NCBI GenBank assembly: GCA_025127975.1
Contig: JAHLYQ010000041.1
Span: forward strand, 80,941 to 144,940
Direction of reading: 5' to 3'
DNA length: 64,000 nt
Origin: Synechococcus sp. CS-1331
Lineage (GTDB): Bacteria > Cyanobacteriota > Cyanobacteriia > PCC-6307 > Cyanobiaceae
Position numbers and translations under genes: made by a program. Below the pieces are notes generated by a model. That model saw only the letters and a list, made by a program, of their open reading frames with translations, had not been told where the DNA came from and did not search any database. Positions 58,848-64,000 of this stretch are shown piece by piece. How positions within the stretch are numbered: position 1 is the first letter of the stretch; the number at the start of each line of letters is the position of its first letter.

Positions 58848-58919
58848 GCGCGATTAGCTCAGCGGTAGAGCGCCTGCCTTACAAGCAGGATGTCGCTGGT
58901 TCGAACCCGGCATCGCGCA
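58848..58919 (+). tRNA. trnV-UAC: tRNA-Val (anticodon UAC)
   Basis: The 72-nt gene folds into a full cloverleaf. The acceptor stem pairs GCGCGAT with ATCGCGC, the D arm reads TAGCTCAGCGGTAGAGC, the anticodon loop CTTACAA gives UAC, and the T arm is GGTTCGAACCC. CCA is not encoded. Its 3' half is the likely attachment site of the integrative element that follows. Confidence 0.95.
58897..58919 (+). other. presumed attL of integrative element at tRNA-Val 3' end
   Basis: A tyrosine recombinase begins 133 nt downstream and points away from the tRNA, the layout of elements that integrate into tRNA 3' ends. The matching attR copy would lie beyond the window, so the core cannot be delimited. Confidence 0.5.
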
Positions 58920-59002
58920 TCGACTTTTTCCAGTGCTGACACGCCTTTTAAGCGAAGCACTGCATTCGTTTGATATGTCCTGATATCGCTTGTTATGGCG
59001 TC

Positions 59003-59033
59003 TGTGCGCACGGCTGTGCGAACATGTGCGCAC
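59003..59033. repeat. three 9-bp repeats with GTGCGCAC palindromes upstream of integrase
   Basis: TGTGCGCAC at 59003-59011, TGTGCGAAC at 59015-59023 and TGTGCGCAC at 59025-59033 lie just before the integrase start at 59052. Two contain the perfect palindrome GTGCGCAC. They could be recombinase arm sites or an operator. Confidence 0.75.
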
Positions 59034-59051
59034 GGTTTAAGGCAGGCACTC

Positions 59052-60311
59052 ATGGCGACGAAGCGACCTCTGGCCTGGGTTAGCTCCATGCGAAATGGGC
59101 TGACGGGTTTGAACGGTGAAGGCTGGACCGTACGCGACATTCGGGGCCGGATCCAACTCTCGGTCCGCTTTGAAGACGGCCAGCGCACCAGCTTGGTGCT
59201 GGATCTGCCCTGGGCGGGCGTAAGCCATGCCGACTTGTTAGCGACGGCGGACAGACTTAAGAAGCTCATGCTCGATAAGGGCCTGGGGTTGCGCGAGGCC
59301 TACGGGCTGCTGGTCGGCTCTAAGGGAACGCAGACGAAGGCCGGCGAACTGAACTGGCAGGAAGTGGTGCGCCGCTTCGAGCAGTTCAAAGTGGGCAGTG
59401 GCGCTGTGAAGCCCAGCAACTGGCAGGAGATGTACAGGCCGGTGATGGAGCAGGCTCTGGCTGCCTTCTTGGCGTCACCTCGTCCCGTAAACAGCAAGGT
59501 GCTCCTGGAGCGGCTGGTGGCAGCCCACGGCGGCGATCCGGGTAGTCGAGGTCGGCAGCTGCGGCTGCAGTACACCGCCCAGCTGCTGCGGTTCGCGGTG
59601 GCGCAGTGTGCCGCTGATCGTCGCTGGGAGCCCCCGGTCAGCCTGAAGCCCTATGTCGGCATCCGAGGCAAGGGCAAGGAGTTCACCACGCCGATCAAAG
59701 ACCACCAGGTGGTTCGCCTGCTGGCCGGCGTAGACAACCCCCAGTGGCGACAAGCCGTGGCTCTGGTGGCCTGCTTCGGGCTTCGTGGGGTGGAGCTGGC
59801 CTACATCCAACCCCGTGGCGACCTGCTCCACTGCAACTACCGCAAGCGCACGGAGCGTTGTCCGGAAGGCACCAAGCCCCGTGACATCGTTGGCCTTGAC
59901 CCTGATGGGCTTGCTGGCCTGAGCGCCAACCTGCTGGCCCAGCTGGCGGAGCAAGGCTCTGCAGCACTTCCCGAGGCTGTTAGGCGCCCGGAGCGGGCCG
60001 GGCAGGCGCTGGGGCAATTTCTTGGCCGGCAGCGGATCTGGCGGGAGCTGATGGAAGGGACGGCGCGCACCCCGAGCACGGATGGGGCCGGACAAGCGCT
60101 GGTGCCCTACAGCCTGCGTCATGGGTATGCCCTGCGCGCCCATGAGATCTATGGCCATAGCCCTAGGGCGACGGCGGCGATGATGGGCCACAGCTTGAAG
60201 ACTCACAGCGATACGTATGGCGCCTGGACGGACCGTGAAGTGATCGAGAACGTCTTGGAACGGACCAAGGCCGTGAGTGCGCGTCTGCAGATGATGCGGG
60301 GGTCCGGTTAG
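59052..60311 (+). CDS. tyrosine recombinase/integrase
   Basis: The 419-aa protein has an N-terminal DNA-binding region and a C-terminal catalytic domain with Arg in CFGLRGVELAYI near residue 241, YSLRHGYALR near residue 353 (Tyr in place of the usual first His) and GHSLKTHSDTYGAW with the nucleophile Tyr near residue 389. ATG 59052 follows a purine-rich AAGGCAGG; an earlier ATG at 58995 would read through the palindromic repeats. It probably integrates the element at tRNA-Val. Confidence 0.9.
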   Translation: MATKRPLAWVSSMRNGLTGLNGEGWTVRDIRGRIQLSVRFEDGQRTSLVLDLPWAGVSHADLLATADRLKKLMLDKGLGLREAYGLLVGSKGTQTKAGELNWQEVVRRFEQFKVGSGAVKPSNWQEMYRPVMEQALAAFLASPRPVNSKVLLERLVAAHGGDPGSRGRQLRLQYTAQLLRFAVAQCAADRRWEPPVSLKPYVGIRGKGKEFTTPIKDHQVVRLLAGVDNPQWRQAVALVACFGLRGVELAYIQPRGDLLHCNYRKRTERCPEGTKPRDIVGLDPDGLAGLSANLLAQLAEQGSAALPEAVRRPERAGQALGQFLGRQRIWRELMEGTARTPSTDGAGQALVPYSLRHGYALRAHEIYGHSPRATAAMMGHSLKTHSDTYGAWTDREVIENVLERTKAVSARLQMMRGSG

Positions 60312-60605
60312 CCGTCTGCAGATACCAATCCGTTCGAATTGGAGCATCGAACGTGTCGCCTAGAATGAAGAGTCCTCAACTGCGGACTACCAAACAAGCG
60401 TCAACATTTCGTCGCCCCCCACCGCGAAGGTGGTAGCAGCGTGAAATGTCCCTGTGGTTTAACGACCAATCGGGAGCGCTTTTTTTGGCCCGTCTTAAGC
60501 AACGCCAGCGGCGGCCAACCATGTTGCGCCCCATCGGTACGCAGAGTTCAACCAACCGCCGATTTTCGCTAAATGCGAATCGGAACCATGCTGTTCCTCT
60601 GACCT
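60312..60605. other. structured region between integrase and excisionase-like gene
   Basis: Within 294 nt lie three possible hairpins: CCAAT/ATTGG near 60335, AGTCC/GGACT at 60371-60388, and a large nested one at 60404-60449. AGCGCT followed by seven T stands near 60475-60487. The region may hold an origin, a regulatory RNA or a terminator-antiterminator. No gene is convincing. Confidence 0.4.
60404..60449. repeat. nested inverted repeat upstream of replication genes
   Basis: An outer stem ACATTTC/GAAATGT encloses CGC/GCG-like pairs and an inner perfect hairpin CCACC-GCGAA-GGTGG. A candidate cruciform or RNA stem-loop near the element replication genes. Confidence 0.6.
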
Positions 60606-63800: not shown

Positions 63801-63838
63801 AGCAGCTGTATCGCTGGGTGTTGCCGGGGGAGCGGTAG
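60830..63838 (+). CDS. primase-helicase replication protein (CyRepA1-like)
   Basis: The 1002-aa protein combines a primase-polymerase-like part and a helicase. Residues 100-210 show the primase pattern: Glu-x-Asp in LRAEIDLED near residue 114, GGKSLHAWIAS near residue 147 and TQVMRLPGAVHK near residue 200. The helicase part has Walker A CRTGTGKSEGA near residue 403, AVLILDEFRQIL near residue 520 and VVICTPVAQSGVSW near residue 695, as in origin-binding helicases and cyanobacterial CyRepA1 plasmid proteins. It should start replication of an excised or episomal form of the element. The ATG 60830 is chosen by its overlap with the previous stop; upstream in-frame sequence belongs to other features. 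Confidence 0.75.
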   Translation: MNPGSGGSVLPCSVHAALQTVPRFLELAAGFRGGDPVVVTFYGGKDGSSGSHHLRWRGHAEGGGALPVVWDEALRQEVEERLLPELEEDRQLGFVAGVGGSKKAQITHLYGLRAEIDLEDSHELQRQVYAAVEERYGIRFTLLDTGGKSLHAWIASSTAIPVEQYSYTSKRWHALIVETAQKAGLDLPKGPDNACHGPTQVMRLPGAVHKKSRKVAEVIQWGEGPVALEALALAWSEVEEWAKRTEVPKTVAKQAFARKCEAGQFLGRSGDARIDELVSLARAVPIRVPGGGTYDTVLKLVGALSRALGAEEAAQVLHRAGHLDKEGRPSLEGLRQWCGTFDSDPEGAADHLGWLAVWAEREHGWHRPALGLEGVLQPSELVAPNSEAISEALFSGGPGLLVCRTGTGKSEGAFAYVNRLDENWAGAAREFSAVMITPRRTINSQSAQKLRAVNVSGRLTGKGDPFRQPGTQPNRYVCCLQSLGNPDKQNGHAAFWGEYQSLGDAGSTPVPTGRGVMAAVLILDEFRQILTDLLLSPSGPKTLWEEPAKRWRSGIALVRSIAHAGVVLAMDAQAGVPEQELLRGIGRVEAARVLGCPTVAPSRTMCWTSDQNRWRDCLLGHAKTRSATDRPLLVVTGAKGKEGKGQRGLSARALRDALLEAVPGVRVLIIDAESKDIKAAQQVLRGEVEGWDVVICTPVAQSGVSWVSAFAETVFVAGGRTLPPNICGGQAGRRERTATTCVAYVPKTEWDRSLPLYDQEEDKIRAELRKAREQAGDLAIAHGWEIVLLERVFVLAARRQIEELALFRDYTLHYAAVDGWATEELAPVKPLPRLKGSGGVREKRTEPVPYGELDQWHELLVRSLRLQANGAVCEVAQAQAEALAESNQAKVGSAGADLLSANLSEVLELLLSAGLGRLCDGERRAGDHELVRAVAEALQIPEAARVLRNAVWLQVDLKGTGAKPARTIGTVVRSLGGVSDAKKVGPRGAQQQLYRWVLPGER

Positions 63839-63890
63839 CCAATAACTCCAGGTTTTCCTATAGGGCACCTCGAAAAATACGATCAGCCCT

Positions 63891-63917
63891 TGCGTTGAGG
63901 CGGCAATAGCTTATAAT
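63891..63917 (+). promoter_or_regulatory. promoter of the IS transposase
   Basis: TTGCGT (63891-63896) and a perfect TATAAT (63912-63917) stand 15 nt apart, 26 nt before the transposase ATG. Confidence 0.55.
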
Positions 63918-63942
63918 TTGGATAGTTAATTGCATCCCTGGT

Positions 63943-64000
63943 ATGGGCCAAAGAGGCTTCTGGGACGAGCAGCAGAGGGTTGACAAGCTCAAAACTAAAA
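63943..64000 (+). CDS. IS5-family-like transposase, N-terminal fragment (cut by window)
   Basis: The visible 19 codons, MGQRGFWDEQQRVDKLKTK, resemble the N-terminus of IS5-family transposases (MGQxGFxD pattern). The gene runs off the window. Identification rests on a short stretch plus the upstream inverted-repeat-like sequence. Confidence 0.6.
   Translation, partial: MGQRGFWDEQQRVDKLKTK

Follow-up and report, generated by a model that had tools for sequence, protein, structure and literature searches.

A tRNA-Val-seated element of Synechococcus sp. CS-1331, probably the left arm of a damaged terS-family phage satellite

What kind of mobile element has settled at the tRNA-Val(tac) gene of Synechococcus sp. 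CS-1331, and by what means could it travel between cells? The window analysed here is a stretch of 64,000 nucleotides (contig JAHLYQ010000041.1, here C6, positions 80941-144940) from a 2.51-Mb assembly of 47 contigs (GCA_025127975.1, here G000; completeness 99.25%); C6 is 144,940 bases long and terminates at window base 64000. Toward this end, tRNA-Val(tac), a tyrosine recombinase (Int), a 294-bp gap, a small helix-turn-helix (HTH) gene and a replication gene (Rep) follow one another on the forward strand. A first-pass annotation had described an integrative element with its own primase-helicase, plasmid-like or tycheposon-like. After comparison with picocyanobacterial genomes of one family (251, G000 included), we think it probable that the window holds the left arm of a phage satellite damaged by an insertion sequence (IS), a member of a family marked by the small terminase gene terS, which resembles the phage-inducible chromosomal islands (PICIs) and carries CyRepA-related replication genes of plasmid type.

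An element integrated at tRNA-Val

That a mobile element is integrated at tRNA-Val in G000 we regard as close to certain. A direct repeat of the tRNA 3′ end had been named beforehand as the test of the annotated element, and such a second copy exists: the 57-bp attL recurs without mismatch as attR on the minus strand of contig C33 of the same assembly, and no third copy was found in that assembly with up to 3 mismatches allowed. The tRNA-Val locus gave matches in 16 of 16 genomes, G000 included, and six relatives of the genus were compared in detail. The sequence that flanks attR on C33 starts approximately 20 and 12 bp past tRNA-Val in G126 and G045, and 1.1-1.25 kb past it in G195, G214 and G143; in G158, only the tRNA part matches the C33 side, and a different integrase gene occupies the site. 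Because tRNA-Val and the C33 flank are adjacent in relatives, the element lies between them in G000. Together with a sibling at the same tRNA (see below), the second tRNA 3′ copy and the synteny of the site bear out the integrative element that was first proposed.

Two of these relatives deserve a further remark. In G195, the closest relative (L174, 1437-2545 after reversal), the approximately 1.1 kb between tRNA-Val and the C33 flank begins exactly at the tRNA end and holds, by eye, an alpha/beta hydrolase gene. In G158 (C82; L178, approximately 2205-3600 after reversal), another member of the genus, the different integrase gene at tRNA-Val is interrupted by stops, and its presence marks the site as a recurrent target.

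Replication protein, small terminase and a DISARM-bearing sibling

The 1002-aa Rep bears out the claim that the element has its own replication protein. It was also called CyRepA1-like, which holds for its helicase part, as the NCBIfam model CyRepA1 (NF042913) matches residues 405-749 only (E 1.6e-11), and does not hold for family membership, as the match scores far under the cut-off. In the N-terminal third lie conserved blocks that we read as archaeo-eukaryotic primase (AEP) motifs, and a five-sequence Rep profile run against the PDB at E<=1 gave a sole, weak match, to the AEP domain of PrimPol (E 0.031); this part of Rep is probably an AEP-type primase, judging by sequence. Rep matches occur in 13 of the 251 genomes. 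Four are near full length (G203, 74-75% identity; G186, 77%; G124, 68%; G197, 37%), and the lesser ones comprise two fragments, one broken and 201 aa long (G209) and the other an additional piece in G186, along with six weak matches (24-35%) and one of 22 residues in G169. An element with tRNA-Pro in Synechococcus sp. 1G10 has a Rep at 67-68% identity. In Prochlorococcus AG-402-I23 (L123) and AG-907-L10 (L124), a near-identical module pairs an integrase with an 838-aa primase-helicase, adjoining tRNA-Pro(tgg) in AG-907-L10; the primase segment of the 838-aa protein shares 31% identity with Rep over 123 residues.

Beside Rep in the relatives lies a gene that matches the terminase small subunit family PHROG 6299 (G203, E 1.2e-18; G186, 1.3e-12; G124, 2.2e-21; G197, 1.9e-12). 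This terS is close to Rep in 4/4 near-full-length Rep relatives, with none near the G209 fragment, and for this reason we favour a satellite over a plasmid or a tycheposon; of the earlier description, the integrative element with its own Rep stands, and "plasmid-like or tycheposon-like" gives way to the better supported terS-bearing, PICI-like satellite. Searched with tblastn, the G203 TerS finds the phages S-CBS2 (E 9e-6), S-CRES3 (5e-5) and PSS2 (0.03) at 28.7-30% identity, plus one unannotated record. The likeness to the cyanosiphovirus S-CBS2 is a terS homologue (30% over 100 aa); the difference lies in what stands beside it, a replication gene in the elements and, directly after terS, terL in the phage. 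Four TerS loci in IMG/VR were rejected as kin (30-39% identity, GC 0.68-0.72), as they clearly belong to other phages; in both of the two that were checked (L192, L194), a terL-like gene follows terS.

The closest sibling lies in G203, the metagenome-assembled genome M_surface_10_m2_119 of a different genus, on VGPU01000050 plus its contig C39, which overlap by 420 bp (414 identical). It is seated at the same tRNA-Val, spans approximately 27.8 kb between 48-bp att repeats, and has an integrase and HTH protein at 89-90% and 90% identity to those of the window. Its gene order runs int, HTH, Rep, terS (13498-14016 of L064), two small genes, drmD, drmMI, a gene for a DUF262-like protein, two small nucleotidyltransferase-like genes, drmA, drmB and drmC. 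PADLOC recognises a complete drmD-drmMI-drmA-drmB-drmC operon, which we take to be a class 1 DISARM (defence island system associated with restriction-modification).

At their right ends, the two elements can be aligned for approximately 450 bp, with two GTGCGCAC-type sites each. The right end of the window element starts with 20 codons matching the C-terminus of DrmC, 371 bp from attR (356 in G203); this remnant scores 59 against the G203 DrmC, a score reached in 0 of 20,000 shuffles, and the next best match within the G203 element scores 33. From this similarity, we infer that the window copy once carried DISARM. The two elements thus share tRNA-Val, Int, HTH, Rep, an alignable right end with GTGCGCAC and drmC as the last cargo gene, whereas only that of G203 has terS and a complete DISARM, with no IS interruption seen. 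Horizontal transfer was not concluded from identity alone, as the gap is too small (81% for the element and 74-80% for its flanks, between the window genome and G203), and SpeE, at 85%, exceeds Rep, at 74%. No convincing relative of the G203 DNA beyond Rep was found in G000.

A two-gene cassette stands between terS and the defence cargo in both G225 (L187, 9244-10081) and G203 (L064, 15561-16449), with identities of 66% and 56%, in elements that carry different Reps; a relative of the first cassette gene (33%) also follows the G169 integrase.

A four-sequence TerS profile found 20 places in 16 of the 251 genomes, 14 of them full length, in 11 genomes. The full-length places were all examined, and a replication gene lies within 1.4 kb of terS in 14/14: the window-type Rep in four, a DUF3854/CyRepA-related gene in seven (four recognised with Pfam and NCBIfam, the other three through their 88-100% identity to one of those), a weak AEP-TOTE match under the cut-off in two, and AAA_25 in one. 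A recognised recombinase lies in the fetched stretch at nine of the 14 (five tyrosine, four serine); with the queries used, one of the others shows a recombinase fragment and four show no recombinase. G061 and G239, which belong to different genera, share an element of the serine-recombinase type at 95.6% identity over 10.5 kb, with a flank at 64%. The G186 element lies between the two copies, 12.0 kb apart, of a 23-bp direct repeat, with no tRNA found near it, and that of G124 has only a 16-bp direct repeat, which we do not interpret; no bounding direct repeat of >=15 bp was found for G197.

Phage structural and lytic genes were searched for with Pfam, PHROG and NCBIfam, and none was found in the 5 kb of the element that the window holds, in agreement with the annotation. 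Likewise, no phage structural family was found among nine cargo proteins tested from G186 and G203, and no terL or capsid gene was recognised among the tested proteins of these two elements.

A satellite weighed against its alternatives

The available text of PMC6092414 describes PICIs as having int at one end, att repeats, an excision function or AlpA- or MerR-type regulator before the replication gene, a divergently transcribed regulator pair, a replication module of primase and initiator, sometimes fused, terS in some, no phage structural or lytic genes, induction and packaging by a helper phage, and a size of approximately 15 kb. In these terms, the window element resembles a PICI in having int at one end, att repeats, a small, putatively DNA-binding gene ahead of a primase-replication gene and, in its readable 5 kb, no recognised structural genes, and its relatives in having terS after the replication gene and accessory genes between terS and the 3′ end. 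It departs from that description in its AEP/CyRepA-related Rep in place of the usual pri-rep and in its picocyanobacterial host. We do not file it strictly as a PICI because no divergent regulator pair is seen, and because terS and packaging are unproven for the window copy. Both att copies, the synteny and the sibling show that Int inserts a circular form into the 3′ half of tRNA-Val through the 57-bp identity segment, leaving the tRNA whole. Should the satellite reading be correct, the HTH protein may direct excision or induction, and the primase-helicase Rep, by homology, would replicate the excised element without a phage replisome. A phage-derived small terminase, present in relatives and expected just past the IS here, could direct the DNA into cyanosiphovirus particles, and the cargo between terS and attR, DISARM in G203, would defend the host against phages.

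Several observations weigh against this reading. Neither terS nor DrmA was found in G000: in the terS search, G203, G186, G124 and G197 all answered, and the searches for DrmA and with the G203 TerS, the latter giving no convincing relative, were run without a positive control. Several Rep neighbours were designated by us and then recovered by self-match. Rep misses the curated CyRepA1 cut-off (43.9 against 200 bits), its AEP half leans on the reading of motifs, the PrimPol match and weak kin, and a fold model of Rep failed (mean predicted local distance difference test, pLDDT, 35.8) and was not used. No Rep relative was found in 50,697 phage records, no tblastn match at E<=0.01 in 72,556 plasmid records, and none of 41 IMG/VR stretches that matched a Rep pattern was confirmed; thus, no packaged copy has been seen. 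Finally, int, HTH and Rep all lie on the forward strand with no divergent gene among them, and the 27.8-kb sibling exceeds the usual PICI size.

The element might instead be an integrated cyanobacterial plasmid, with Rep serving episomal upkeep, Int parking it in the chromosome, and transfer by transformation or the conjugation of others rather than by phage. The helicase segment of Rep is like that of the CyRepA1 proteins (NF042913), plasmid replication proteins in the available text of PMC10899382, and DUF3854/CyRepA1-related genes are most of the terS neighbours of other type. Rep is nonetheless unlike CyRepA1 in its score, in an N-terminus that is AEP-like and not DUF3854, and in being found in an integrated element; moreover, the plasmid records hold no Rep relative, no partition or conjugation gene was recognised in the tested parts of the G203 sibling, and to have a phage terS next to Rep is uncharacteristic of plasmids, so that we consider a plasmid unlikely. 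We judge improbable, too, a tycheposon as strictly understood for Prochlorococcus, namely an island of cargo genes that sits at a tRNA and depends on its recombinase for movement, packaged or not. The window has the tRNA border and tyrosine recombinase by which, together with cargo, tycheposons are characterised in the available text of PMC10872708, and the 838-aa Rep kin is found on two single-cell contigs of Prochlorococcus, whose int either adjoins tRNA-Pro or has the same start; the cargo here, however, is defence and not nutrient genes. The categories overlap, as some tycheposons are themselves proposed to be phage satellites in cyanobacteria in what is available of PMC11389934. Compared by description and not by recombinase class, as far as the available texts go (PMC10872708, PMC11389934, PMC10187409), the window element is like the tycheposons and virion-encapsidated integrative mobile elements (VEIMEs) of marine picocyanobacteria and marine virions in its tRNA seat, tyrosine recombinase, cargo and proposed satellite lifestyle, and unlike them in its DISARM cargo, PHROG 6299-type terS and high-GC host group.

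A decayed prophage, of which only int, replication and terS were left, would fit the phage origin of terS and the visible damage to the window copy. Yet the same short gene order without terL recurs across genera and sites with its genes intact, and in the window the reading frames of int, HTH and Rep are uninterrupted and conserved; prophages would hardly decay independently to one and the same core. No phage with this Rep was found in the phage records or in IMG/VR, and we consider this explanation very unlikely. Least credible is that two unrelated things have been joined, the scar of an earlier integrase at tRNA-Val and a tRNA fragment that lies on C33 by chance. C6 and C33 are indeed not joined in the assembly, but five of the six relatives examined show synteny between the C33 flank and the tRNA-Val locus, with only the tRNA part matching in the sixth, G158, and the C33 end can be aligned with the right end of the G203 element, which largely refutes the idea.

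It is tempting to speculate that terS satellites form a widespread, modular family in picocyanobacteria. Their cyanosiphovirus-type terS would be paired with one or another replication gene of plasmid type (AEP-helicase, DUF3854/CyRepA or AAA) and with a recombinase of either the tyrosine or the serine class, and whole anti-phage operons, DISARM among them, would travel with such satellites from genus to genus. We hold this wider view tentatively, as a serious possibility. If it is true, CyRepA-type replication genes would be a currency shared by cyanobacterial plasmids and phage satellites, and three subjects usually treated apart, the tRNA islands of picocyanobacteria, CyRepA-type plasmid replication and cyanosiphovirus packaging, would be linked. 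It would also suggest a vehicle, open to testing, by which a large defence operon such as DISARM could spread through freshwater picocyanobacteria, and further elements could be sought by a simple rule, namely terS beside a CyRepA or AEP replication gene without terL. An 11-kb Crocosphaera-like packaged genome has been proposed as a phage satellite, according to the available text of PMC7174320. The coupling of a cyanosiphovirus-type terS to plasmid-type replication genes and DISARM looks new; no description of terS satellites of freshwater picocyanobacteria was found in a literature search that had most subscription papers outside it, and absence is therefore not shown.

Features of the left arm and its interruption

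Table 1. Features at the right-hand end of the window (positions in window coordinates)
Feature	Position	Strand	Remarks
tRNA-Val(tac)	58848-58919	+	ARAGORN; integration target, intact at the element's left end
attL, 57 bp	58865-58921	+	Exact copy is attR at C33:45880-45936
Tyrosine recombinase Int, 438 aa	58995-60311	+	Open reading frame, PHROG integrase, relatives
Three GTGCG(C/A)AC sites	59004, 59016, 59026 (span 59004-59033)		Candidate arm-type sites
Conserved hairpin	60404-60449		Between int and the HTH-rep pair
Small HTH protein, 75 aa	60606-60833	+	Overlaps Rep start as ATGA; candidate excisionase/AlpA-type regulator
Rep, 1002 aa	60830-63838	+	Probable N-terminal AEP-type primase and CyRepA-related helicase
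TATA	63859-63862		Presumed 4-bp target duplication (TNNA), left of the IS
IS left end	63863-64000	+	Multi-copy; transposase start 63943; interrupts the element, ends the contig

Int matches a PHROG integrase family (E 4e-8) and no Pfam family at E<=1. Residues R264, K284, R375, H399 and Y408, which we take to be the catalytic set, are conserved in 4/4 aligned relatives. Because GTGCGCAC sites overlap the first codons of the start listed in Table 1, the protein may start instead at the in-frame ATG at 59052. Exact GTGCGCAC occurs only twice in the 64-kb window, both times within the span of the three sites and 22 bp apart; two further copies lie on C33, 60-92 bp from attR, in a layout that is the same in G203, and a role as arm-type sites of the recombinase can be proposed for this motif. 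Integrases of this family are common (matches in 242 of the 251 genomes), and among the 250 other genomes only G203 has one above 55% identity to Int, the best other genus member reaching 37%. Chromosomally fixed orthologues as relatives of the recombinase would, by the annotation, have spoken against the element; the recombinase is instead patchy in its distribution.

The HTH gene differs from its G203 homologue by 4/4/19 changes at the three codon positions, which marks it as a real, translated gene, and the ATGA overlap couples its translation to that of rep. No family match was found for the protein in Pfam, PHROG or NCBIfam, and no sequence match in the PDB. Its fold model (pLDDT 54.7) gave a best Foldseek E of 0.93, with non-significant matches to BldC, MerR and excisionases, and was not used as evidence.

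The hairpin upstream, a candidate origin or regulatory structure, has a z of -2.29, with 4 of 200 shuffles folding equally well and two distinct sequences only. It is kept in G203 in sequence, plus one compensatory pair change. The exact motif occurs in 8 of 195 loci, all of them copies of G000 and G203, and not in IMG/VR. Rfam gave nothing at E<=0.5 across 58900-64000.

The cargo had been expected to be readable by extending the contig to the right; instead, C6 stops 138 bp into the IS, which is presumably IS5-like and has its end repeated on six or more further contigs. C33, in turn, stops 574 bp past attR, and its final 141 bp are another repeat, found again on C38 (100%), C41 (98%) and C27 (93%), and partly on C12 and C18. 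As both contigs end in repeats, the interior of the element is unreadable in this assembly, and the window copy, which insertion sequences have broken at either side, has probably lost its mobility. Placing the right ends of the IS by target duplication failed, as none shows TATA, and no contig was placed in the gap. The odd right ends on C19 and C44 were rejected as element interior, as chromosomal genes or a second integrase, at tRNA-Ser, lie there.

On C44 (50000-59823; L119, 5469-7023), tRNA-Ser(cga) is followed by a 427-aa integrase-like gene, a second integrative element; here, too, the contig ends in the right end of the same IS, which truncates the element. On C19 (L117, 64-5003), type I restriction-modification genes (by eye hsdS and hsdM) are cut by the right end of this IS and adjoin hydrogenase genes.

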